Both the position numbers and the translations under genes were made by a program. Shown piece after piece: positions 14,560 to 28,030 of a stretch of DNA of 64,000 nt (position 1 is its first letter; every line of letters begins with the position of its first letter). The notes below the pieces were generated by a model, which saw nothing but the letters and a program-made list of their open reading frames with translations, made no database searches and was not told the origin of the DNA. The stretch covers positions 244,579 to 308,578 of the forward strand of contig NZ_FNGS01000005.1 of the NCBI RefSeq assembly GCF_900103285.1. Direction: 5' to 3'. This stretch comes from Siphonobacter aquaeclarae (lineage in GTDB: Bacteria > Bacteroidota > Bacteroidia > Cytophagales > Spirosomataceae).

Positions 14560-14844
14560 ATGACGTTCGCAGAAGTAGACGCCAAAATCAAGCAGCTGGC
14601 AGCCGCCAAAGGGGGCACCGGCGACATCATCAAATTCAAAACCGACGAAGGAAACATCGTCATCGGCCGTGACGGCGTGGTGACGAACGACGACGCTGAG
14701 TCGGACGTAACCATCGGCATCAGCGCAAAGGACCTGGGCAAGCTCATGACGGGCGACCTCAACCCGATGACCGCCCTGATGTTCGGAAAGATCAAGATCG
14801 AAGGCGACATGGCCGTAGCCATGAAGCTGCAAACATTGTTTTAG
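14560..14844 (+). CDS. SCP2 sterol-binding domain protein
   Basis: A 94-residue stand-alone SCP2 domain, which binds lipids or acyl-CoA in a hydrophobic tunnel. The family pattern is visible in order: N-terminal helix TFAEVDAKIKQLAAAK, strands IIKFKTDEGNIVIG and DVTIGISAKDLGKLMTG, then the signature NPMTALMFGKIKIEGDMAVAMKLQTLF. There is no signal peptide. It lies after the MpaB-like gene and is followed by a strong hairpin before mnmE. Its proximity to an oxygenase that may act on hydrophobic substrates is suggestive, but no pathway can be assigned. Confidence 0.85.
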   Translation: MTFAEVDAKIKQLAAAKGGTGDIIKFKTDEGNIVIGRDGVVTNDDAESDVTIGISAKDLGKLMTGDLNPMTALMFGKIKIEGDMAVAMKLQTLF

Positions 14845-14848
14845 TGTG

Positions 14849-14880
14849 CGGCGCGGCCGAAGGCCGCGCCGACTCTTTCT
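14849..14880 (+). terminator. GC-rich hairpin between the SCP2 gene and mnmE
   Basis: Perfect 10-base arms CGGCGCGGCC and GGCCGCGCCG with a GAA loop occupy 14849-14871, followed by ACTCTTTCTT. It begins 5 bases after the SCP2 stop and ends shortly before the mnmE ATG at 14889, so it may terminate or attenuate read-through. The T-run is imperfect. Confidence 0.5.
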
Positions 14881-14888
14881 TAACCGCC

Positions 14889-16229
14889 ATGGCTCAGAAC
14901 CAGACCATTTGCGCGCTGGCCACCCCGCCCGGCGTGGGTGCCATCGGCGTCATCCGGGTCTCCGGCCCGGAGACTTTCCCCATTGTCCAGAAGCTGTTTC
15001 GCGGCAAAAACCTGGCGGAACAGCCCGGCCATACCATTCATTTCGGCACCATCCGCGATGAACATAACGAGATCGTAGACGAAGTACTTGTCAGCGTTTT
15101 CAAGGCTCCGCATTCCTATACCAAGGAGGATTCCGTCGAAATTTCCTGCCACGCTTCCGGGTTCATCATCCAGAAAATCCTGCGGCTCCTGCTGAAAAAC
15201 GGCTGTCGCATGGCGCAAAACGGGGAGTATACCCAGCGGGCGTTTCTCAACGGCCAGCTCGACCTGGCGCAGGCTGAGGCCGTCGCTGATCTCATCGCGT
15301 CCGATTCAGAAGCGAGTCACCGCGCGGCGATTCACCAGATACGCGGCGGTTTTTCGAAGGATATCGCGCAATTGCGGGAGCAGTTGATCCATTTTGCCTC
15401 GATGATTGAGCTGGAGCTGGATTTCGGGGAAGAAGACGTGGAGTTTGCCGACCGCGACCAGCTGCGGCGGCTCATCACCGAGATCTGCCTGGCGCTGCGC
15501 CCGCTGATCGACTCCTTTGAACTGGGTAATGTGCTGAAGGAAGGCGTTCCGGTGGCGATAGTCGGTCCGCCGAACGCCGGGAAATCCACCCTCCTCAACG
15601 CGTTGCTCAACGAAGAGAAGGCCATCGTTACCGACATCGCCGGTACCACGCGCGACGTCATCGAAGACGTCCTCATTCTCGACGGCATCAAGTTCCGCAT
15701 CCTCGACACAGCGGGTATCCGCGAAACATCTGACAAGGTCGAAGCCATCGGCGTGGAGCGTTCGCTCGCCGCGATGGAAAAGGCCGATATTATTCTCAAA
15801 CTCAGCAGTGCGGACGTAGCCGATCCGGCGTTTGAAACCCTTTTTGCCGAGCGAATGGGCAGTTCAGACCGAGTAATCTCCATTCGTACCAAAGCCGATT
15901 TACCGGAGAACGAAGGAGTCGGGGCCGACCTGATCCTCTCTGCCGCCACCGGCGAAGGCATCGACGCCCTGCGCGACGCCCTCGTGACCCGCGCCCGCGG
16001 GCAACGTACCGGCGACACCGTTGTCACCAACCTCCGCCACTACGAGCACCTCACCGCCACCGACGCCGCCCTCGAACGCGCCCTCCGCGGCCTCGACTCC
16101 GGCATCACCCAGGACTGGCTCGCCATGGACATCCGGCAAGCGCTGCATCATTTGGGAGAGATTACGGGGCAGATTACGACGGATGATTTGTTGGAGGTGA
16201 TATTTTCGAAGTTTTGTATTGGGAAGTAG
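14889..16229 (+). CDS. mnmE: tRNA modification GTPase MnmE
   Basis: The GTPase partner of MnmG that installs the carboxymethylaminomethyl group on U34 of certain tRNAs. The start at 14889 (MAQNQTICALATPPG) matches the conserved N terminus; the open frame runs back to a GTG at 14844 inside the SCP2 stop region. Domains are the N-terminal formyl-THF-binding domain, the central helical domain (YTQRAFLNGQLDLAQAEAVA) and an inserted Ras-like G domain with G1 GPPNAGKST (about residue 226), DIAGTTRD and DTAGIRE. The C terminus is the diagnostic FCIGK. The length is 446 residues. The AT-rich accessory island starts immediately after its stop. Confidence 0.96.
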   Translation: MAQNQTICALATPPGVGAIGVIRVSGPETFPIVQKLFRGKNLAEQPGHTIHFGTIRDEHNEIVDEVLVSVFKAPHSYTKEDSVEISCHASGFIIQKILRLLLKNGCRMAQNGEYTQRAFLNGQLDLAQAEAVADLIASDSEASHRAAIHQIRGGFSKDIAQLREQLIHFASMIELELDFGEEDVEFADRDQLRRLITEICLALRPLIDSFELGNVLKEGVPVAIVGPPNAGKSTLLNALLNEEKAIVTDIAGTTRDVIEDVLILDGIKFRILDTAGIRETSDKVEAIGVERSLAAMEKADIILKLSSADVADPAFETLFAERMGSSDRVISIRTKADLPENEGVGADLILSAATGEGIDALRDALVTRARGQRTGDTVVTNLRHYEHLTATDAALERALRGLDSGITQDWLAMDIRQALHHLGEITGQITTDDLLEVIFSKFCIGK

Positions 16230-16465: not shown

Positions 16466-16796
16466 GTAGCAGCCAGCCTGTCCGGCGAGGGGCCTGTCCT
16501 GAGCTAGTCGAAGGGCGACGACCGGGCAGCCTCCTCAAAGCCGTAAACGCAGTCGGCTAGGGGATTACAGCTTGCTACTGGCCTTTGGCCGTTCCTGATA
16601 TTCCGTTTCATAGTCATTCGTAAACCTCTATCGGAGTTTTTTGCTGTTGCTGCCATGCCCACAGGTTGAATTTATCAATAGGTCTTACAAGCTTGCAAAT
16701 TTTGCAAGCTTGTCCGTCCGAACTGGCAAGGCTGCCAAATAGGTCGGTACACTCCTTCTTTTATTTATTTATATTTGCCAAGTCAATACTAAGACG
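16466..16796. other. Non-coding stretch with REP-like and palindromic sequences
   Basis: No gene is supported here. The segment 16491-16514 (GGCCTGTCCTGAGCTAGTCG and the next AAGG) resembles dispersed repeats seen in many bacterial genomes. A perfect palindrome follows at 16687-16713. The rest has no recognisable content and appears to be junction or decayed DNA between the Fic remnant and the XRE remnant. Confidence 0.4.
16687..16713. repeat. 27-base perfect palindrome with HindIII-like core
   Basis: Arms ACAAGCTTGCAAA and TTTGCAAGCTTGT are exact reverse complements around a single T. It lies about 85 bases before the XRE remnant start. It could be an operator for that regulator, a REP-type unit or a terminator stem. 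There is no T-run after it, which speaks against a simple terminator. Confidence 0.5.
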
Positions 16797-17089
16797 ATGG
16801 AAAGCCAGTTTGGTGAGAAAATACGAGCACTCAGAGAGCAGCAACATTTGTATTTGCGGCAGGTAGTCCCATTGCTTGAAATGGACACGGCTCAGTTGAG
16901 TAGAATCGAAAAAGGATTGTGACAAAAAAAGAGAAGTAAATTCCTTTACTGACTCAAATCTTTGGAGTGAATAGAATGGAGTTGGAAGTCCTTTGGTTTG
17001 CCGACCAAATAATGCGTTTGATAAAAGACCAACCAACGCCAGATGAAGCATTGAAAGCCGTTTCGAAAAATATTAAGAAAAAGAAATAA
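16797..17089 (+). pseudogene. Broken XRE-family helix-turn-helix regulator in front of the restriction-like cassette
   Basis: The frame from the ATG at 16797 encodes an XRE N terminus, MESQFGEKIRALREQQ then HLYLRQVVPLLEMDTAQLSRIEKGL, and stops at TGA 16920-16922 after 41 codons. After a short stretch that needs at least two frame changes around the A-runs near 16924-16950, a second frame beginning at about 16976 (MELEVLWFADQIMRLIKDQ and on to AVSKNIKKKK) restores the usual C terminus. That frame ends at TAA 17087-17089, overlapping the helicase ATG as TAATG. Intact relatives are about 100-residue controllers of restriction operons. Here the protein is probably lost, unless assembly errors in the A-runs created the breaks. 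Confidence 0.72.
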
Positions 17090-20000
17090 TGTCTACAAAG
17101 TTTTTTACAAATGAAAATAATAACACCCTTCTAAGTAAAATTGAGGGGGTATTCAAGCATCGAAACATTCACTTTTTCGATGCTTTAGTAGGCTATTTCA
17201 GAGCTTCAGGTTATTTCCGCATCCATCCATTTGTAGAAAAAGCAGCTGAAATTAGAGTACTCGTAGGTATCAATATCGACAACCTTGTTTATGAAGCGAA
17301 TAAGCGGGGTTTATTGTTTATTGAAGATCCAGCCAAAAGCAGAGATGATTTCTTCGCTGAACTGAAAAAGAACATTCAGGAGGCAGAATATGATAAAGAT
17401 GTGGAAGCTGGAATGCTCCAGTTGATTGAGGATTTGGTTACTGAGAAGATAAAAATCAAAGTGCACCCAAAGCAGAACCTACATGCGAAAATCTACATTT
17501 TCAGAGAACAAGAGAAGCATGACCACGGCTATGGCTCTGTTATTACTGGTTCAAGTAATTTAACCGATAACGGCTTAGAAAGAAATTTTGAGTTCAATGT
17601 TGAATTACGGGATAACACAGATATAGATTTTGCTACAGAAACCTTTAACAAACTTTGGAATGAAAGTGTAGAGGTAGGAAAAGAGTTTGTGGATAAGCTC
17701 AAAAAAGAAACATACCTGAACGATGAGTTTACTCCCTTTGAGGTATACATGAAATTCTTAATTGAATATTTCGGCAGAAGCATTGATTTCGACCCTAACT
17801 CAATTCAGGATTTACCACAAGGATTTAAAAAGTTATCTTACCAGGTTGATGCGGTTGCAGATGGTTACAGCAAGATGATGAAGCACCACGGCTTCTTTTT
17901 ATCTGATGTAGTAGGACTTGGTAAAACCATAGTAGCCACGTTGATAGCCAAGAAATTCTTTTATTCAAATGGGTTCCCATCTTATTTGTCTAAAACGCTG
18001 ATTGTTTGTCCTCCAGCATTGAAGGAAAACTGGGAAAATACTCTTTCTAAATTCGGTTTACACAACTATAAGATTGTAACATCGGGTAGTCTGCATAAAG
18101 TAAACAAGCATCATGACTATGACCTGATAGTTGTGGATGAAGCTCATAAGTTTAGAAGTGATAGTGCCGAAATGTACTTTCACTTACAAAATATCTGCAA
18201 ATCTCATACACGTAAGAAACTAACCAACGATACTTACGAGCAGAAAAGAGTGATGCTGATTTCAGCCACACCACTAAACAATAAGCCGGAGGATATTGCG
18301 AATCTTGTGTACCTTTTTCAGGATGCCAAAAACTCGACTTTAGAGGTGGGCAATTTGCAGCACTTTTTCAGATGTGAAATTGATGCATACAAAAAACTGA
18401 AGGCTGAAACTGATATTCAGAAAGTGAGTACCGGTGTAAAAGGTATTTATGAGAAAATAAGGGTAAAGGTTATCGAACCCCTTACAGTGAGGAGAACCAG
18501 AACTGACCTTTCAGAAAACGAGGAGTATGCAAAAGATTTGAAAGAACAAGGTGTCATTTTCCCGGCAGTAAACAAACCTGAGAAAATATTTTATCAATTA
18601 GATGAATATTTAGACAGCCTCTATGATAAAACGATTCTGTATCTAAGCCACCCCACCAAGGGGCTTTCTTACAATCGTTATCAGTCAATAAAATATTTGA
18701 AGCCGCATAAAAAGGGTAAGTATCAAAAGGCTGATATGATTTCAACCCAGTTGGCTTTCATTATGAAAACACTATTGGTAAAACGTATCGACAGTAGCTT
18801 TTATGCCTTTAAGCAGTCTTTAAATCGCTTTTTGGCTGCTACCAATGCAATGGTAACCATGTTTGATAATGACAGGATTTACATTGCCCCAAATTATGGA
18901 GTAAGTGACTACATAAATGAAGGTCGTGAAGAGGAGTTAATTACAATATTGACTGATCTTGCCGAGACTGATCCAACAATTGAAATTTGCACTGCTGATG
19001 ATTTTGAGCCTGGCTTTATTACTGGTCTTAAAAATGACAAAGTGCTGCTGGATGAATTAGTACAGGATTGGGCAAATGTTACCCAAGACCCTAAACTGGA
19101 AGTATTCGTTGATTACCTGAAAAATAAACTCTTTGATAAAACAATCAATAAAGATGAAAAACTGGTTGTTTTTTCTGAATCGAAGGAAACCACGGCCTAC
19201 TTGGAAGCTGAATTAAAGAAGGCAAATTTCAACAAGGTATTAGTAGTAGATAGCAAAAACAGAAAGGATAAATTCCCTTTCGTAAAAGCAAACTTCGATG
19301 CAAATATTCCACTAACAGAACAGAAGGATGATTACAATATCGTAATCAGTACCGAGGTGCTGGCTGAAGGCGTAAATATGCACCGTGCAAACATCATCGT
19401 TAATTATGACACCCCTTGGAACAGTACAAAACTCATGCAGCGTATTGGTAGGGTGAACCGTATTGGATCAAAAGCAAACAACATTCATATTTTCAATTTC
19501 TTTCCAACGGCTAAGGTCAACAGTGATATTGAACTTGAGAAAAAGGCCATTATGAAATTACAGGCATTTCACTCAGCAATGGGTGAAGACAGTCAGATAT
19601 ATTCGCCGGATGAGGTTACAGAGAGCTTTGGCTTGTTCGATAAAACAGTAAACGAGGAGAAAGACGAGAAACTGAGGATTTTGTTGGAATTGCGAAAGTT
19701 CAAAAAAGATAATCCTGATCTATTCAATCAAATTAAAAACATGCCAACAAGGGCAAGGGTTGGCAGAAAAAGTCCTGTGCTGAAAGGTGCAACCATCACC
19801 TTTATTCGCAACGAGAAAAGAGATGCTTTCTTACTTGTTAAGGAAAACGGAGATATTGACGAACTCACATTTCTGCAAGCTGAAAAGGAGTATAATGCAA
19901 AAATTACGGAGAAAGCTATCCCACTGAATGAACAGCATCATAAACAGGTGAAGGAAGCCATCAGCTTGTTTGCTAACAAAATGGAAGAGGAGAAGAGTAA

Positions 20001-20355
20001 GGAACGTAAAATTGATACCACACAAGGCCCCAATGAAAAGAAAGCTTTGAGTTTCCTTGATGCATTAACCAATATGCAAATTGCTAATCCGGAGGAGAGG
20101 GAGTTAATGCAAAATGCCAAAGCCGCCATTCGTTTAGGTAAATTTCAGCAATTGCAAAGGGATGTAAATAAGCTGGCAAAAGCAATAAAGGTTGCTCCCT
20201 TAAAACCTGCCAATTTGTTGGAAGAGGTTATAAAACTGCTAAACAAATACCCCTTACAAGTGGTGGAAGATGATACCATGCAAATGCTTCGACCCATTTT
20301 CAACATCAAGGAGTTTAAACCGGAAATAATCATTAGTGAAAGTTTCGATAACTAA
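17089..20355 (+). CDS. PLD-nuclease/SNF2 helicase fusion of a restriction-like defence cassette
   Basis: A 1088-residue protein. Residues 1-180 form a phospholipase D-like nuclease domain with the HxK pair His132/Lys134 (NLHAKIYIF) and the following GSSNLTDNGLERNFEFNVEL. From about 245 it is a superfamily 2 SNF2-type helicase: Q-like motif, Walker A VGLGKT (275-280), DEAH (350-353), motif III SATPLNN, and in the second RecA lobe VFSESKETTAYL, STEVLAEGVNMHRA and QRIGRVNR. A basic, charged helical tail follows (about 850-1088). It overlaps the broken XRE gene by one base and is 15 bases before the methylase gene. Base composition is markedly AT-rich against the flanks. The role is inferred: ATP-driven DNA translocation or cleavage in an anti-phage system. 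Confidence 0.88.
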   Translation: MSTKFFTNENNNTLLSKIEGVFKHRNIHFFDALVGYFRASGYFRIHPFVEKAAEIRVLVGINIDNLVYEANKRGLLFIEDPAKSRDDFFAELKKNIQEAEYDKDVEAGMLQLIEDLVTEKIKIKVHPKQNLHAKIYIFREQEKHDHGYGSVITGSSNLTDNGLERNFEFNVELRDNTDIDFATETFNKLWNESVEVGKEFVDKLKKETYLNDEFTPFEVYMKFLIEYFGRSIDFDPNSIQDLPQGFKKLSYQVDAVADGYSKMMKHHGFFLSDVVGLGKTIVATLIAKKFFYSNGFPSYLSKTLIVCPPALKENWENTLSKFGLHNYKIVTSGSLHKVNKHHDYDLIVVDEAHKFRSDSAEMYFHLQNICKSHTRKKLTNDTYEQKRVMLISATPLNNKPEDIANLVYLFQDAKNSTLEVGNLQHFFRCEIDAYKKLKAETDIQKVSTGVKGIYEKIRVKVIEPLTVRRTRTDLSENEEYAKDLKEQGVIFPAVNKPEKIFYQLDEYLDSLYDKTILYLSHPTKGLSYNRYQSIKYLKPHKKGKYQKADMISTQLAFIMKTLLVKRIDSSFYAFKQSLNRFLAATNAMVTMFDNDRIYIAPNYGVSDYINEGREEELITILTDLAETDPTIEICTADDFEPGFITGLKNDKVLLDELVQDWANVTQDPKLEVFVDYLKNKLFDKTINKDEKLVVFSESKETTAYLEAELKKANFNKVLVVDSKNRKDKFPFVKANFDANIPLTEQKDDYNIVISTEVLAEGVNMHRANIIVNYDTPWNSTKLMQRIGRVNRIGSKANNIHIFNFFPTAKVNSDIELEKKAIMKLQAFHSAMGEDSQIYSPDEVTESFGLFDKTVNEEKDEKLRILLELRKFKKDNPDLFNQIKNMPTRARVGRKSPVLKGATITFIRNEKRDAFLLVKENGDIDELTFLQAEKEYNAKITEKAIPLNEQHHKQVKEAISLFANKMEEEKSKERKIDTTQGPNEKKALSFLDALTNMQIANPEERELMQNAKAAIRLGKFQQLQRDVNKLAKAIKVAPLKPANLLEEVIKLLNKYPLQVVEDDTMQMLRPIFNIKEFKPEIIISESFDN

Positions 20356-20370
20356 TCAACTACTCATCAA

Positions 20371-23300
20371 ATGCAAGAGAGAGAAATAAAAAATACACTC
20401 ACCGATGATTATGCCTTTGACAAGTGGCAAAGGCTTATTGACTTTGTGTTTCCCAAAGTCAATTTTGAAAACTCCATTGTCTCTTTGGATGATAGTAGTA
20501 ATAAAACTAAATACGTCCATCAGAAGGGGGATATTACACTCACTGACGGTAAGAAGATAATCATCCTTGAAGTTTGCATTAAGAAAGAGAACAAGATTGC
20601 CAAAACCAAAGTAGGTTTTCACAATATCACTGCTAAGTATATTGACCAGGCTAACAACCACGGTATTTTGGTATTCTATGTTTCGGAGGATAAGTCTCAG
20701 CAAGACTATCGTCTATCTTTCATTTGCAAAGAATCTCGTTTTAATGAAGAGGGTCAGTTTGAAGAATTTAAAACAAACCCTAAGCGTTATACCTACCTGT
20801 TGGGTATCAATGAATCTGCTACTACTGCTGCAAAGCGACTGAGGGAATTAGCAGCAAAGAAAAACACTTTCAACTTCGAGTTAAAGGATGTCATTGATGC
20901 CTTCTCTGTTGAAAAACTGAATGACGAGTTTTTCAAAAAATACAAAGAGCAGTTCCAGATATTTAATAACTACCTTATTGAAGATGATAAAATAAGGTAT
21001 AGCATTTTTGATATTGATAAGAATGAGAAAGAAGAGAATAAAACTGCCAACGAACTGGCCATTCGTGATTTTACAAAGAAATTATTAGGTCGTTTAGTAT
21101 TCCTTTACTTTTTACAGCGTAAGGAATGGATGGGTGTATCCACACCAACAGGCAGCCAGAAAGTAACTTGGAAAAACGGGTATAAAAACTTTGTATATAA
21201 ACTCTTTACGGAAGCGGCTAAACCGGAAAAATTTCACAGCAAATATTTATCAGAACTGTTCTACAATACACTGAACAACGAGAGTCGTGAAAACTTTGTT
21301 TTCCTGATAGATGGCAAAAGCCCATTTAATGATTCAAAAAATGTGAGTGTTCCATACCTCAATGGAGGTTTGTTTGATGATGATTTTCCGAAGGGCAATA
21401 AGATTGATTTCCCAAAACACATTTTTGAAAATCTGTTTGAGTTTTTAGAACAGTACAATTTTACCATTGATGAAAACAGCCCGGAAGACCACGAGGTAGG
21501 TATTGACCCTGAAATGCTTGGCCACATCTTTGAAAACCTCCTGGAAGACAATCGGGATAAGGGTGCATATTATACACCCAAGGAAGTGGTGCATTATATG
21601 AGCCAGCAAAGTATTATTGAATACCTTAAGCACAACTTAAATACCGATAGCAAAGACATAGATGATTTCGTAAAGGGCAATGTTGTTTCTGACCTTGTAA
21701 GAGCCAATCGTTCGCTGATAAAGAAATTGCTGAAAGAGGTAAAAGTATGTGATCCGGCTATTGGTTCAGGAGCTTTCCCAATGGGTGTTTTAAAAGTAAT
21801 ATTCACTGCATTGCAAAACCTGCACAATGCTATCAGCCCAAATGAATCATTTAATGAGGCTAAGGTGAAAAAGGATATTATTCAAAAAAGCATCTATGGT
21901 GTTGATTTGGAAAAAGGTGCCGTTGACATTGCAAGGTTGCGATTTTGGCTGGCATTGGTGGTGGATGAAGACAAGCCTCAACCCTTACCTAACCTCGACT
22001 ACAAAATCATGCAGGGAAACAGTATCCTTGAAAAGTTTGAGGACGTGGATTTGAGCAACCTGTTAAAAGACGAGAATGAAGACATTATTATTGCACACAA
22101 AGGGCAGGTAGAATTGCCTGGCTTTGGAAGAAACCAAAGTGTTTTTGTGTTCGACAGTACCATCAAAGAAGAGTTTCAGAGCCTTATAGATTTATACTTC
22201 GATTTTAAAGTAGATGCCTCACATCCGTACAAAACTAAACGGGAAGTTAAGGCTATGATTAACTCCATTGTTGAGGGCAAGTTGAAGGCAAAGTTTGCAT
22301 TGGATAAAACCAAGTTGCAAGCAACTTTGGCCGAAAAGCGAAGCCATGTAAAGGCTAATACAATCAATACCCATGACCCAAAGGGAGTTCAGGATAAAAA
22401 GACCAAAGCATTAGAGAAACTAAATAAAGAAATTGAATCCCTTGAATACAAGATAGCCCACCTGAGTGATATATTAGACCGCCTCAACCGATGGGAGCAT
22501 GAGGAGAAAGAACGGCCCTACTTTTTGTGGCACACCTATTTCAAAGATGTATTCGATAAGGGTAAGTTCGACATTATTATAGGCAATCCACCCTACATTA
22601 AGGAATACACTAATCGTAAGGCGTTTGATGGAATTAGAGACAGCCCTTACTACATTGGCAAAATGGATATATGGTACTTTTTTGCCTGCTTCTGTATTGA
22701 TATGCTGAAAGACAATGGAGGCGTACAATGCTTTATTGCACAGAACAACTGGATAACCAGTTCAGGTGCTGCAAAACTGCGGAACAAAATTGTGCAGGAA
22801 ACTGAAATGCTTTCGTTTATTGATTTTGGTAACTACAAAGTATTTCAGAGTGCCGGTATACAAACCATGATTTATGTAGTGAAGAAAACAACGCCAAGAA
22901 AAAAATATACCACCAACTATGCAAGATTGCTGGTGGATAATATTGATAAAACCTTTTTGGATTACTTCCTGCAATCAGATGCAAATACTACACATGAAAA
23001 CTTTGAAAAGGTAAACTTTGAGTTTGTTCCGGACACTTATATCGATGGTTATATCACTTTTGCAAATGACACTAATGAGAATATTCTAAAGAAAATTCAA
23101 GAGGTTGAACATATACGATTGGAAGAAAAGGAGATAGCGACCGGAATACAGCCTAATCCCGATGTTGTTAATACAAGGAATATTAAGCGTTTTACTGAAC
23201 GAGAAATTAGCGACAACAAAATAAAGATAGGCGATGGAGTTTTTGTTGTTCCGAAGGGTAAGTTTGATAAATTGGATGATGCTGAGAAAAAGTACATCAA

Positions 23301-24126
23301 GCCAGTCTTTGAGCCTAATGAAGTTCAGCGGTACAAGTTTATTGATGATTACGAATCTGAAATATTGTACATCACGAAAGCCAATTATCAAAATGATGCA
23401 CCGAATCTATTAAAGCATCTCTCTGTCTATAGTAAGATAATGGAAGAGAGGCGAGAAAATCAAAATGGTCGTCTTACTTATTACCATTTGCAATGGCCAA
23501 GAGACGAAAATTTCTTTAAGGAGGGAGAAAAAATATTAAGCGTTAGAAAGTGTGATAGACCTACGTTCATTTACACTAAATCGATGTCATATGTAATGCT
23601 TTCGTTTAATGTAATTAGGACTGAAAGAGTAAGCCTGAAGTATTTGACTGCATTGCTAAATAGTAAACTAATAGCATTTTGGTTAAGAAACAAAGGTAAA
23701 ATGCAGGGTAACAATTACCAGATAGATAAGGAGCCTTTGCTTGAGATACCCATTGCATTGTCTGACAAGCAGCAAATTATTGCTACGCTGGTCGATTATA
23801 TTTTGCTGGTTCAACAGCCCCGCAAGGAGCTGTTGATAAAATACATTGGCGATGATTTAGTTATTCATTCGTTTGATGAAGTAATAGACCAGGCTTTTTA
23901 CGAAATATATTTTGGCACAGAGCCGGAAATGGCAGAATTGTATGTGTTGAAATACCTGGAGAATATTAAGCCAATTTCAGAAGACTACACGGATGCCGAT
24001 ATTGAAACAGTGGTGAAATTTTACCACTGGCTGCATGAGCAAACCAATCCTGTTCGTACCGCTTTACTCAAAGCCAACATAGTGAGTAAAGATATTATTG
24101 GTGTAATAAATTCAACCATCAGCTAA
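20371..24126 (+). CDS. Type IIG-like restriction-modification protein (N6-adenine methylase, Eco57I/TaqI class)
   Basis: A 1251-residue protein. The N-terminal 150 residues resemble a PD-(D/E)XK nuclease domain, with GDITL (Asp54) and ILEVCIKK (Glu67), but the usual ExK lysine is Cys69. The gamma-class adenine methylase core follows: GAYYTPKEVVHYM (about 400, motif X), VCDPAIGSGAF (about 458, motif I, with Ile where Cys is common), YGVDLEKGAVDIARLRFWL and IIIGNPPYI (about 739, motif IV NPPY). The region from about 950 to 1180, ending in a LLNSKLIAFWLRNKGKMQGNNY-like segment (split by the writer), fits the TaqI-C target-recognition domain. The stop overlaps the ATPase start (TAATG). Expected role: methylate host DNA and, with its partners, attack unmodified DNA. 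Confidence 0.88.
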   Translation: MQEREIKNTLTDDYAFDKWQRLIDFVFPKVNFENSIVSLDDSSNKTKYVHQKGDITLTDGKKIIILEVCIKKENKIAKTKVGFHNITAKYIDQANNHGILVFYVSEDKSQQDYRLSFICKESRFNEEGQFEEFKTNPKRYTYLLGINESATTAAKRLRELAAKKNTFNFELKDVIDAFSVEKLNDEFFKKYKEQFQIFNNYLIEDDKIRYSIFDIDKNEKEENKTANELAIRDFTKKLLGRLVFLYFLQRKEWMGVSTPTGSQKVTWKNGYKNFVYKLFTEAAKPEKFHSKYLSELFYNTLNNESRENFVFLIDGKSPFNDSKNVSVPYLNGGLFDDDFPKGNKIDFPKHIFENLFEFLEQYNFTIDENSPEDHEVGIDPEMLGHIFENLLEDNRDKGAYYTPKEVVHYMSQQSIIEYLKHNLNTDSKDIDDFVKGNVVSDLVRANRSLIKKLLKEVKVCDPAIGSGAFPMGVLKVIFTALQNLHNAISPNESFNEAKVKKDIIQKSIYGVDLEKGAVDIARLRFWLALVVDEDKPQPLPNLDYKIMQGNSILEKFEDVDLSNLLKDENEDIIIAHKGQVELPGFGRNQSVFVFDSTIKEEFQSLIDLYFDFKVDASHPYKTKREVKAMINSIVEGKLKAKFALDKTKLQATLAEKRSHVKANTINTHDPKGVQDKKTKALEKLNKEIESLEYKIAHLSDILDRLNRWEHEEKERPYFLWHTYFKDVFDKGKFDIIIGNPPYIKEYTNRKAFDGIRDSPYYIGKMDIWYFFACFCIDMLKDNGGVQCFIAQNNWITSSGAAKLRNKIVQETEMLSFIDFGNYKVFQSAGIQTMIYVVKKTTPRKKYTTNYARLLVDNIDKTFLDYFLQSDANTTHENFEKVNFEFVPDTYIDGYITFANDTNENILKKIQEVEHIRLEEKEIATGIQPNPDVVNTRNIKRFTEREISDNKIKIGDGVFVVPKGKFDKLDDAEKKYIKPVFEPNEVQRYKFIDDYESEILYITKANYQNDAPNLLKHLSVYSKIMEERRENQNGRLTYYHLQWPRDENFFKEGEKILSVRKCDRPTFIYTKSMSYVMLSFNVIRTERVSLKYLTALLNSKLIAFWLRNKGKMQGNNYQIDKEPLLEIPIALSDKQQIIATLVDYILLVQQPRKELLIKYIGDDLVIHSFDEVIDQAFYEIYFGTEPEMAELYVLKYLENIKPISEDYTDADIETVVKFYHWLHEQTNPVRTALLKANIVSKDIIGVINSTIS

Positions 24127-25985
24127 TGAAGATTACCGAACTCACACTACATAACTTCAAGTTTTTTACCGCAACCGACAACACACTAAAGCTGGACGGT
24201 AAAAACTTGTTGATATGGGGCGAAAACGGCAGTGGTAAATCTTCTATCTATTGGGGCATTTATACATTGCTCCAGTGCAGTTTTAAAGATAATGATGGAA
24301 TAGACGCATACTTTACAGAAAACCACGAGAAAAACCTCATAAACATACATACACCTGCCGGTGATCCTTCTTTCATAGAAATGAAGTTGGATAATGGTAG
24401 TGCGTATAAAATTGCCCTTGGCGATTATAGTGTCATCAATGACCAAGATGTTCAGCTAAGTGCAGTCAGTAGTGATTTCATCAATTATCAGGTACTGGCA
24501 AGTTTCCTCAGCTTTTATCACAGAGACAATCCTGTTTTGTTTGAAATGTTTGAAGAGGAGATTTTCAGATACTTACAATTTGCACCACCAGCACCATATA
24601 CTTTCGATTTCTTTAATGATGCCTGGGATGAGCTTAAAAAAACATTGGTTAAAAGTGGCAAGCCAAGCAAATATCCAAATAGGCAATCCACAATAGTTAC
24701 CAATAAAACAAATCTTAAAAATGCTTTCAATATTCAATTAAGAACCTTACTGGCAAATGCAACAGCAAAAGCCAATGACATACTTAAAAATCATTTTGGG
24801 TATGATATAGAAATTGAATTAGAATATCGGGAGTATAATTTTGAACTGCTGGCCAACAATAGCGATGTACGCTATACTATGCCGCAGATATTCCTGAAAA
24901 TCCGAAAGTATTATGGTAAAGAAGATGCTGTTAAAAAGCCTCACTCATTTTTAAACGAAGCCAAAAAGACTGCCATTGGTTTGGCAATACGTTTGGGTAT
25001 TTTGGAAAGAAGATTATTGGCCAACAAGCTAAATGTACTGGCTTTGGATGATTTGCTGATAAGTTTGGATATGAGCAACCGGGAAGTGGTGTTAAAACTA
25101 CTCTTTGGCGTGTATCAGAATAAATATCAGTTATTGATTTTCACCCACGATAAACAATTCTTCAATATTGCTAAGCACAAAATAGAGCACAGCAGTTTTA
25201 AAGACGACTGGTTGTTTTGGGAATTTTATGTGAATGAAAAAGACCCACTTGTTCCGAAACCGAGGTTTTTTGAAAATGAAACGGAATTGTCAAAGGCACT
25301 ATATCACTTGTCAGAAAGCGACTATCCTGCATCTGTCAATTACCTGAGAAAGCATACGGAGAAGATTTTGGAAAAATACTTTCCTCATCATTTGTATGCA
25401 AACATTGACAAAGAAGAGCCCAACAGCAATTATACATTGGATTCTATGCTTGGCAGGGCCATTATCTTTTTCACCAAGATGAATCAGCCCACAATAGTCT
25501 CGAGTTTATCAGATGTAAAACAGTATGTAAAAATTCTATTGAACCCATTATCGCATACAGAACGTGGAGTTCAAAGACATAAGGGCGAAATCAAAAACAT
25601 AATAGTCACTTTAGATGCTTTGGAAAAGTCATTTTCACTGGTGTCATATAGAGTACATATTAAGTCAGGTGAGCTTGTTACTTTAAAACTCACTAAGAAT
25701 GCAACAACATCTTACGAAATTGATGTAGGGCTTCTGGAAGATTTATTTTGGTTTAAAGATGGTCTAAATGACCGTTTTGCCTCATGCAAATCCGAATCTA
25801 TAAGAATAAGAGAGTTTGAAAATGCCGTTTTAAAAGAAGATAAGAAATTCAATCACTATAAAGATTTACCACTTTCTGATTTGTATACTCAGATTGTAAC
25901 TCATAATGCTTTTCAAATACCTGCTATTGCAGATTGGGAGTCACTGTACTTCAAATCTGACGGCAGCCCATTAACTACTTTGTAA
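24126..25985 (+). CDS. SMC/RecF-like AAA ATPase of the defence cassette
   Basis: A 619-residue ATPase. The N terminus MKITELTLHNFKFF is the RecF/SMC-type first strand, followed by Walker A WGENGSGKSS (31-40). The coiled-coil span is short. A degenerate ABC signature lies in FLNEAKKTAIGLAIRLG (about 277-293), Walker B in KLNVLALDDLLISLD and the H-loop in LLIFTHDKQFF. The last 200 residues are helical with NPLSHTERG, a segment recalling helical C-terminal domains of restriction-associated ATPases. Its ATG overlaps the methylase stop by one base, so the proteins are made together. It probably couples DNA-end or complex sensing to the helicase and methylase partners. The exact family is not recognised. 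Confidence 0.82.
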   Translation: MKITELTLHNFKFFTATDNTLKLDGKNLLIWGENGSGKSSIYWGIYTLLQCSFKDNDGIDAYFTENHEKNLINIHTPAGDPSFIEMKLDNGSAYKIALGDYSVINDQDVQLSAVSSDFINYQVLASFLSFYHRDNPVLFEMFEEEIFRYLQFAPPAPYTFDFFNDAWDELKKTLVKSGKPSKYPNRQSTIVTNKTNLKNAFNIQLRTLLANATAKANDILKNHFGYDIEIELEYREYNFELLANNSDVRYTMPQIFLKIRKYYGKEDAVKKPHSFLNEAKKTAIGLAIRLGILERRLLANKLNVLALDDLLISLDMSNREVVLKLLFGVYQNKYQLLIFTHDKQFFNIAKHKIEHSSFKDDWLFWEFYVNEKDPLVPKPRFFENETELSKALYHLSESDYPASVNYLRKHTEKILEKYFPHHLYANIDKEEPNSNYTLDSMLGRAIIFFTKMNQPTIVSSLSDVKQYVKILLNPLSHTERGVQRHKGEIKNIIVTLDALEKSFSLVSYRVHIKSGELVTLKLTKNATTSYEIDVGLLEDLFWFKDGLNDRFASCKSESIRIREFENAVLKEDKKFNHYKDLPLSDLYTQIVTHNAFQIPAIADWESLYFKSDGSPLTTL

Positions 25986-25997
25986 ATCGAATTAATT

Positions 25998-26923
25998 ATG
26001 TCAGAGATCAATAACCCATAATACAACGACATCATATTTTACAACACCCCCACCGGTGATGTGAAAATTGAGGTGATTTTTAATGCGATACCTTTTGGCT
26101 TACTCAAAAGCGGATGGCAGAATTGTTTGGTGCGGAAGTTCCTGCTATCAACAAACACCTGAGTAATATTTACGAAACGGGCGAATTAGACGAAAAGGCA
26201 ACTATTTCCATTTTGGAAACAGTTCAGCAGGAAGGTACCCGGATGGTAAAGGGGAATGTGGAGTTTTACAATCTGGATGCCATAATAGCCGTGGGCTACA
26301 GGGTAAACAGCCATCAGGCTACCCAGTTCCGGATTTGGGCTATCAAAATCCTTAGAGAGTTCATTATCAAGGGGTTTGTGCTGGACGATGAAAGACTTAA
26401 ACAGGGAGAACGCTTTGGCAATACTACTTTGACGAACTCCTGGAACGTATCCGGGAGATAAGGGCCAGTGAAAGGCGTTTCTACCTCAAAATAGCCGACA
26501 TATACGAGCAGTGTAGTATAGACTATAACAAGGATGTAGAAATAACCCAAAAGTTCTTTAAAGCTGTTCAGAGCAAGCTGCATTGGGCCATTTCCGGCAA
26601 AACTGTAGCCGAACTGATTGCAGACTGCGCCGATGCCTCTCAACCCAATATAGGCTTAACGACTTGAAAAAATGCTGCTAAGATAAAATCCTGAAAACCA
26701 ATAGTGGAACAGCCAAGAATTGCTTACAGGAAAATGAAATGAAAGAGCGTATCATTACCATGCACCTCGATTTTGCTCGACTGCAAGCCGAAAGATGAAT
26801 CCCGATGACAATGGCAGGTTGGTTTATCCGTTTGGTGCCTTCGTTATATTCAAAGAGTAGATGATTTCACAAGACGCCGATAAAGTATTTAATGAAGTAG
26901 CTGTCAAATTAGTGAATGAATAG
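25998..26923 (+). pseudogene. Decayed RhuM family gene
   Basis: The start MSEINNP at 25998 is followed at once by an in-frame TAA where the family has a Gln or similar codon. The frame then gives YNDIIFYNTPTGDVKIEVIFNA. A one-base loss near 26088 shifts into MAELFGAEVPAINKHLSNIYETGEL and so on. Another loss near 26421 shifts into DELLERIREIRASERRFYLKIADIY. Further breaks lead to the C-terminal SQDADKVFNEVAVKLVNE with a TAG at 26921-26923. Intact RhuM proteins are about 330 residues and often sit beside restriction systems in genomic islands. The remnant starts 12 bases after the ATPase stop, so it was probably the fourth gene of the cassette or a cargo gene. Confidence 0.8.
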
Positions 26924-28030
26924 TATATAAATTAGAATTTTTGGAATTGGTATTCTGAAATTGATCCAGATAAAGAAGTGGAAAGATAAGCGATAGACTA
27001 GAAAGTATAAAAAACCAAGTGTAGCAGTGTAAAATCGATATTGCTCAGTCAGGCTCGTGGTAGATTATCTGGCTTTCGCTTTCTGTGGCGTGAAGCAGAA
27101 GAGGTTTGGCCCTATCTCTTAGGATAAGTTGTTTGAGTCATTCCCTGAAGACACAGAAGCCAAACATGAAAGTTACCGTAGCGATTCCAAGCCACGGTCG
27201 TTAAAATGTCATTTTTTTTCATGGAAGGCGTTGGTTTTCCGTTCATTACTTTTGCTACATCATCCTGTACTAGTTCAAGACCATTTATGGGAAATATTGC
27301 ATTTCCCAACTTTACCGAAGATGTGTGAGTGTGGCTGGAAGATACTGATGGCTTCTATGTTTGGCGTTATCTTTCGAGTGTTTATCAGCTTTCAGTATTG
27401 CTTTTGAGGCTTTTCTGAGGGAATAACTCCGCCAAGCTGGTGAGGCCATTTTGTAACGGTAGCAAGGAACGGCTTTAAGCTATTTGACGATGTTGAGCAC
27501 GTTGCAGACGCTATTTTTGAGAGAGCACTGCGTAGATGGACATAATGTCGGGATGGACAATGGAATTCCTGCAACAGCGGCTAAATACTTTAGACTTGGT
27601 AGTTATGGGCCGAAAAATACTGTTGTCTTTGATCATCTGAAAAGCTGCTTCCGAAATGTGATACTTTCAGTCGGGAAAAAAAATTTAATGTTGTGTTTTC
27701 TGAGACAGAGCGATTTGATAATCTCTGTGTAAATTATGCTGACTATATATAAAAGTCAATCAAATGAAAATTAACGTGGCCCTTACTCGCTATCTGATTT
27801 TGGCATTAGAACCACCATAATAAGCTTGCGAACATGAAGATAGGATCATCTAAACATTAGAATAGTGAAGAGACGGTAGAGTTTATTTACAATATTCTCA
27901 TGTTGGGACAAAAATTCGCCAGAAGTGATAAATATTACTTTGCTTATCGAGCCTTTTTCCCCCTTTTCCTCGTATATTCGAAACATCGCAGAATTGCTTT
28001 AGCCTGGGCGGGTTATTTGCAGTGCGATGG
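26924..28030. other. Decayed AT-rich DNA at the right side of the island
   Basis: About 1.1 kb with no intact gene. Several open stretches of 60-92 codons exist on both strands (for example 27129-27407 and 27484-27732 on the plus strand), but none has a recognisable motif, a plausible start or support from neighbours. Some plus-strand fragments in alternating frames look protein-like, such as FTEDV then WLEDTDGFYVWRYL after frame changes, so an old frameshifted gene is likely. The base composition returns to the host level near 28000. Confidence 0.5.

Follow-up and report, generated by a model that had tools for sequence, protein, structure and literature searches.

A PLD-SNF2 helicase and an adenine methylase as the core of a putative ATP-dependent restriction-modification operon with an accessory SMC-like ATPase in Siphonobacter aquaeclarae

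A 64,000-nucleotide stretch of the Siphonobacter aquaeclarae genome (contig NZ_FNGS01000005.1, positions 244,579 to 308,578; hereafter, the window) carries an AT-rich operon of three large genes, which raises the question whether these genes make up a single, undescribed anti-phage system, as suggested in the initial annotation, and what such a system would do. The three open reading frames (ORFs), all intact and on the same (+) strand, encode a PLD (HKD) nuclease fused to a SNF2-family helicase (HEL, 1088 amino acids (aa), 17089-20355), a type IIG-like adenine methylase and specificity protein (MTR, 1251 aa, 20371-24126) and a RecF/Rad50/SMC-like ATPase (ABC, 619 aa, 24126-25985). The ORF coordinates and joins confirm the compact layout originally reported, with a gap of 15 bases between HEL and MTR and a one-base overlap between MTR and ABC, and the base composition likewise agrees with what had been noticed: the GC content per kilobase is 35-38% at 17-26 kb and 40-41% from there up to 28 kb, compared with 48.5-60.5% in the remaining kilobases of the window, and the GC content at third codon positions is 0.36-0.40 in the trio versus 0.74 in the upstream mnmE gene (14844-16229). 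With a probability that we put at about 0.6, the operon encodes an ATP-dependent restriction-modification (R-M) system that consists of two core proteins, HEL and MTR, and an accessory ATPase, ABC; most likely, it labels the DNA of the host cell and cleaves foreign DNA that lacks the mark.

Relatives of the three proteins were sought in a single set of 395 genomes drawn from the phylum; given that few candidates were scored per genome, the tallies are lower bounds and, in the case of HEL, missed at least one relative (L127, 355 bits). HEL was detected at E<=1e-60 in at least 33 of the 395 genomes (about 8%), MTR at E<=1e-40 in at least 28, and ABC at E<=0.001 in at least 23 (26 rows, 13 at E<=1e-20). 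Gene order was compared in 37 stretches around these matches, and the association of the two larger genes is apparent from both sides. In 30 of the 32 HEL rows examined, the window included (34 rows in total, with G184 and the second G333 row left out), MTR follows HEL immediately or no more than two genes further on, and one of the two exceptions (L087) ends at a contig end. Conversely, HEL loci account for 26 of the 31 MTR rows, among which two genes are counted twice (G224 and G262); in two of the 26 cases, MTR is on a second contig of the genome concerned. In three of the other five rows, a divergent relative of HEL (22-31% identity) is encoded close by. In a plasmid collection, five records, two of them from Thermaceae, match HEL at E<=1e-60, and in each of the five a methylase is encoded no more than two genes away.

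The third gene behaves differently. Full-length relatives of all three genes occur in the same order elsewhere, so that the trio is not a chance assembly, but ABC is present at only 11 of the 32 HEL loci, and the proposal that the three genes form one system did not hold; regular co-occurrence across genomes is seen for HEL and MTR only. The count of 11 relies in two cases (G046 and G213) on inferring that two contigs belong together and includes a broken copy (L085), and among the 21 loci without an ABC call, three (L065, L075 and L089) are truncated by contig ends in or close to MTR. The distribution of ABC is patchy but not random because, on a HEL tree of 34 rows (including L002, L028 and L092, and with the same contig inferences), its presence requires at least seven changes, compared with a mean of 11.1 after shuffling, and only 4 of 500 shuffles are as low. 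The gene directly upstream of ABC is MTR in 12 of the 13 rows at E<=1e-20, one of which (G177) has internal stops, and the two genes mostly overlap or are separated by a few bases; the exception is a fragment (L094). The 12 remaining ABC rows, which are second pieces or match other ATPases weakly, were dropped, and the broken ABC of G141 (E 1.8e-11) is likewise located behind MTR. Protein distances are correlated between HEL and MTR (r=0.73 over 29 loci, with none of 2000 permutations as high) and between MTR and ABC (r=0.85 over 12 loci; 0.74 without the close relative L002, a metagenome-assembled genome (MAG) from Cyclobacteriaceae); for HEL and ABC, r is 0.53 over 11 loci when L002 is included, again with 0 of 2000 permutations as high. 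On the basis of the adjacency counts and distance correlations, we read HEL and MTR as the core unit and ABC as an optional add-on that appears to track MTR.

HEL contains the Pfam domains PLDc_2, SNF2-rel_dom and Helicase_C, as expected from its initial identification. The PLDc_2 domain (residues 103-190; 17395-17658, +) has a single HKD motif, H132-x-K134, followed by GSSN at 154-157 and E168, and the SNF2/Helicase_C motor (residues 251-793; 17839-19467, +) has the Walker A lysine K279, DEAH at 350-353 and motif VI spanning Q784-R791. H132, K134, G154-N157, E168, K279, D350, E351, H353, Q784, R785, R788 and R791 are invariant in all 34 HEL sequences. One HKD motif usually means a dimeric nuclease, and given its single motif, HEL probably acts as a dimer. 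Among the PADLOC models, C3a139 (‘HKD+Snf2’) matches HEL with 146 bits. A second PLD-SNF2 helicase is encoded downstream of a HEL-YhcG-MTR-ABC operon in a genome of the same family (L061:3362-6328).

MTR matches Eco57I, N6_Mtase and TaqI_C in Pfam. In gamma-class enzymes, motif I precedes NPPY and the specificity domain is at the C-terminus; MTR has the same order, with motif I (D461) just upstream of the Eco57I methylase core (residues 507-825; 21889-22845, +), NPPY at 739 and a TaqI_C-type target recognition domain at residues 1041-1128 (23491-23754, +), and the initial assignment to the gamma-class adenine methylases is thereby borne out. D461, P462, G465, G467 and NPPY are invariant in 31 of 31 MTR sequences. 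The C-terminal third (residues 900-1251) is on average the most divergent part of the protein, with 18-35% identity to seven relatives other than L002, compared with 49-57% to the same seven for residues 441-600. In one relative, MTR is split over two overlapping ORFs (L064:8312-11529).

The best PADLOC match of MTR, REase_MTase_IIG (240 bits), brings up the alternative of MTR as a type IIG enzyme sufficient in itself, with methylase and nuclease in one chain and cutting by its own N-terminus, and of HEL and ABC as independent neighbours in a defence island. The N-terminal alpha/beta domain (about residues 1-165; 20371-20865, +), which had been described as nuclease-like, could accommodate such a role inasmuch as the order of helices and strands at about residues 16-105 in the structure model (mean pLDDT 76.7) is, in our reading, compatible with a PD-(D/E)XK nuclease core. 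However, Foldseek returned no PDB match for the domain at E<=0.001, the candidate catalytic positions are poorly kept (E67 in 11, K71 in 13 and D59 in 21 of the 31 sequences), with neither the E-x-K nor the D conserved, and the adjacency of HEL and MTR from both sides speaks against mere neighbourhood. We therefore regard a stand-alone type IIG enzyme as very improbable, and a nuclease-like N-terminus as unproven; given the lack of conserved nuclease residues and of a fold match in MTR, the PLD domain of HEL is most likely the active nuclease of the system.

Methylation, cleavage, dimerisation of HEL, defence and the role of ABC, as we infer them from sequence, would fit together as follows. 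The C-terminal recognition domain of MTR would bind a specific site, where methylation of an adenine would protect host DNA. On unmethylated DNA, MTR would recruit or license HEL, the SNF2 motor of which would translocate on DNA while the PLD domain, probably in a dimer, cuts. ABC would probably be an optional partner of MTR that senses the state of the complex, as a regulator or fail-safe, and would not take part in basic restriction.

Several observations weigh against this reading. A histidine kinase gene stands in place of MTR in L097, and the MTR relatives in L128 and L131 (G133 and G365) have no detectable HEL in the stretch covered, an arrangement that a self-sufficient MTR would explain. 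Shared ancestry alone can also yield correlated HEL-MTR distances. The correlation between HEL and ABC falls to r=0.17 without the near-identical L002 (10 loci; 199 of 2000 permutations as high) and is 0.28 when the most distant rows are omitted as well (9 loci; 140 of 2000); it thus depends on L002, and a three-protein complex is therefore unsupported. The N-terminus of MTR, with 26-39% identity, is nearly as divergent as the presumed specificity end. Finally, the control gene of the helix-turn-helix (HTH) type directly upstream of the operon (16749-17086, +) is in pieces in the window (16749-16916 and 16925-17086 by tblastn, 54-57% identical to L002:2530-2964), which makes expression uncertain.

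An adjacent helicase-methylase pair of the same kind is described (PMC12458937) for DISARM class I (DrmD and DrmMI) and ARMADA (ArmA and ArmB), the common elements being a SNF2/RapA-like helicase and a PglX/DrmMI-like methylase. The HEL-MTR pair could itself belong with the pairs of DISARM class I, ARMADA or BREX, given that DrmD (NF038317) is the top NCBIfam match of HEL and that, in PADLOC, HEL matches DrmD, HmaA and BrxHI/HII and MTR matches DrmMI and PglX. The DrmD match, however, scores 158.7 bits, far below the 610-bit cut-off, and DrmA, DrmB, PglZ and BrxC are absent from the five nearby window genes scanned and from eight large neighbours in relatives (PADLOC, E<=1e-10), with the smaller neighbours not all scanned. 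Neither a YprA-type helicase (DrmA/ArmC) nor DrmB is among these neighbours, and the PLD nuclease, which in DISARM is a separate gene, drmC, is fused to the helicase in the window. Furthermore, the recurrence of the pair at nearly all HEL loci argues for a stable unit rather than a recent remnant, although the pair may have an origin in common with theirs. By the features tested, membership in DISARM class I (DrmD score; DrmA and DrmB), BREX (PglZ and BrxC) and ARMADA was rejected, in agreement with the initial annotation, which had placed the operon outside BREX and DISARM. We consider it unlikely that the pair belongs with these systems; our best reading is that the HEL-MTR system shares parts with their helicase-methylase pairs and, by the features tested, is not a member.

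Hma and the type 2 DUF499 BREX-related systems (PMC12839542, PMC8565338) also combine a methylase and an ATPase with a SNF2 helicase that carries an HKD nuclease at its N-terminus. Membership in Hma, the first candidate for such a combination, was rejected on account of the ATPase, which in the window is SMC/Rad50-like and not DUF499: it has no DUF499 or HmaC match (HmaC is not among its 19 PADLOC families). In addition, no DUF3780 was found in the few neighbours scanned. The CxC and Pbe systems (PMC10853773) combine an HKD-SF2 helicase with an ABC ATPase and, in some cases, methylases; CxC and PbeABCD are characterised by cytosine methylases, a DndE partner and an ABC protein whose long coiled coil bears a Zn-hook, whereas the longest helix of the window ABC has about 41 residues (184-224), its two cysteines form no CxxC, and the methylase belongs by family to the adenine type. 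The absence of a Zn-hook coiled coil led us to reject membership in PbeABCD, no separate search for DndE having been made; one ABC relative (L074) gives a weak PbeC match of 34.6 bits. The preferred R-M reading also has counterparts in type IIG and type I R-M systems with embedded PrrC, RhuM or YhcG, which likewise have a C-terminal target domain and, as in some relatives of the operon, variable specificity and extra defence genes, but carry the motor and nuclease on HsdR or as a fused nuclease, whereas the window uses a separate PLD-SNF2 protein.

The literature found, to which subscription papers did not contribute, covers related systems, none of them described as a HEL-MTR pair. The suggestion that the system is undescribed thus stands insofar as no single model for the trio was seen among the PADLOC protein models (system definitions are outside the reach of hmmscan), and has to be qualified in that its parts are already modelled, by REase_MTase_IIG and C3a139, and related pairs have been published. 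Treating HEL and MTR as a unit changes both annotation and testing, given that PADLOC 2023 keeps the parts under separate models.

ABC matches SMC_N, AAA_15, AAA_23 and AAA_29 in Pfam, and its ATPase head resembles those of Rad50 and SMC by profile and fold (model pLDDT 79.6). The Walker A, Walker B and H-loop elements reported earlier are present: all 15 ABC sequences share the Walker A lysine, the Walker B aspartates and an N-E-A signature, and at the H-loop position 10 of them have H and 5 have Y. The C-terminal region (residues 382-510; 25269-25655, +) can be compared with DUF4145, which is classed as HEPN and found fused to restriction helicases according to a 2013 paper (PMC3710099). Against five DUF4145 proteins, hhalign gave a probability of 60.7% (E 8e-5), compared with 0.05% and 0.7% for two other ABC segments used as controls, and aligned R408, E412, N473 and H477, all invariant in ABC (H477 in 15 of 15); in a comparison limited to a single sequence, the value was 6.3%. 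Pfam found DUF4145 in two of seven ABC C-terminal fragments, both under the cut-off (E 0.003 and 0.04), and no DUF4145 or HEPN domain in the fragment from the window, and a PDB profile search with the C-terminus yielded chance-like matches only. The arginine of the HEPN Rx4-6H motif is lost, position 470 being R in 1 of 15 sequences and positions 471-472 in none.

Such a C-terminus would fit a role of ABC as an abortive-infection effector, comparable to PrrC/RloC or to AriA of PARIS, that is set free once the HEL-MTR complex has been blocked by a phage. The same paper (PMC3710099) describes HEPN-ABC proteins along with RhuM adjoining R-M genes; AriA is the best PADLOC match of the ABC from L084 (46.9 bits); mad3 matches the window ABC (37.8 bits) and all four ABC relatives scanned (36-49 bits); and ABC is patchy and follows MTR. 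The AriA and mad3 matches nevertheless fall within the ATPase head, to which the likeness to MADS and PARIS is limited, and no other MADS or PARIS genes were seen beside the window operon. Moreover, the loss of the HEPN arginine makes ribonuclease (RNase) activity doubtful, and the window fragment itself lacks a Pfam HEPN match. We take an effector role for ABC as a possibility that falls well short of our preferred reading; because the HEPN arginine is missing, binding or sensing by the C-terminal domain appears more likely than RNase activity. On a Nostoc plasmid (L029:10988-13434), an ABC relative is located behind a 338-aa protein, in which the only Pfam matches are TaqI_C/MmeI_TRD target-recognition domains.

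Other defence genes occupy comparable positions in relatives. Between HEL and MTR, L061, L064 and L073 encode a YhcG nuclease and L028 a protein with a Schlafen domain; in L062 and L063, MTR is followed by a KAP NTPase with a relationship to PifA; RhuM is present in L002 and L073 and partially in L088; and an Argonaute gene is present in L002, with a weak Argonaute match in L068 adjoining an Argonaute-associated nuclease gene. The operon could represent a separate ATP-dependent R-M family, with a stable core of a PLD-SNF2 protein and a specificity methylase. Some members would switch specificity by DNA inversion, and the third gene would be interchangeable: here the SMC-like ATPase with a HEPN-derived domain, elsewhere KAP, RhuM, YhcG, Schlafen or Argonaute. 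This is a tentative and rather doubtful extension of the R-M reading. If it is true, the third gene would act as a fail-safe when phages inhibit the core. The accessory position of ABC makes it a testable question whether the core enzyme is guarded by genes that are embedded in restriction operons. In another relative (L079:943-4071), a 1042-aa protein encoded about 4 kb behind MTR has a strong mad3 match (290.7 bits) and a mad8 match.

The specificity end of MTR is variable in several relatives. On a Prevotella nigrescens plasmid (L126, 7364-15494), two pieces of the MTR C-terminus are inverted behind MTR, together with an ATP-binding gene for which no similarity to ABC was detectable at E<=0.001; the adjoining gene is annotated as an Mpi-family invertase, and a 47-bp inverted repeat (95.7%) is present, an arrangement that is likely a specificity switch. 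Inverted repeats extend from MTR into the downstream stretch also in L070 (128 bp, 74%), L072 (30 bp, 93%) and L077 (321 bp, 95%), each with a resolvase-family gene. Inverted repeats and recombinase genes are thus combined at 4 of 38 loci; repeats reaching out of the ORF at E<=1e-6 were found for 2 of 30 long MTR, 0 of 33 HEL and 0 of 22 other long ORFs. Judging by anatomy alone, the specificity end of MTR looks invertible at these four loci, and an invertible, divergent C-terminus is as expected of a specificity module; if true, it would be a source of phase-variable methylation. At five other loci of the 38 (L073, L080, L081, L090 and L091), direct copies of the MTR 3' end that encode a similar C-terminal motif are located behind a downstream gene and read like scars of C-terminal exchange in which the old end was left behind. 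Neither pattern was detected in the window. In L077 (9018-11471), the repeat (94.7%) pairs MTR with a TaqI_C specificity piece on the opposite strand, next to the resolvase-family gene.

The history of the operon is best seen in comparison with L002 (JAHBTY010000005.1), which shares a 10.1-kb block with the window at 93.1% DNA identity (16925-27014, unstranded, against L002:2803-12904), so that the coordinates initially given, 17089-25985, hold for the ORFs but fall short of the homologous block. The gene order in L002 is the HTH control gene (144 aa), HEL, MTR, ABC, RhuM and Argonaute, the latter two intact behind ABC in the same orientation (L002:11873-14986). In the window, the RhuM-family gene directly downstream of ABC (25998-26834, +) is broken into four tblastn pieces, with a Pfam RhuM match on the ORF at 26114-26461, and the comparison with L002 revealed no Argonaute homologue in the window. 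Together with the broken control gene, this could mean that the operon is a decaying remnant without present function; all three ORFs are, however, intact, and the pairwise ratios of nonsynonymous to synonymous substitution rates (dN/dS) between the window and L002 are 0.028 for HEL, 0.103 for MTR and 0.089 for ABC, though selection may have acted mostly on the L002 lineage. We accordingly find decay hard to credit and retain the reading of an R-M system. The dS of MTR (0.11) is about three-fold lower than that of HEL (0.38) and ABC (0.37), and identity peaks at 98.0-99.6% at 22.35-23.6 kb, within MTR, which suggests that MTR was exchanged more recently than HEL and ABC.

The operon was probably acquired. 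When the mnmE regions of four relatives from the same family are compared with the window, similarity at the nucleotide level stops at 16228, the end of mnmE, in all four, and no convincing direct repeats that would mark the insertion ends were found. The five nearby window genes scanned are metabolic genes or mnmE, and downstream of the operon are a gene of the glucosamine-isomerase family and a gene with sub-threshold matches to the beta-lactamase fold.

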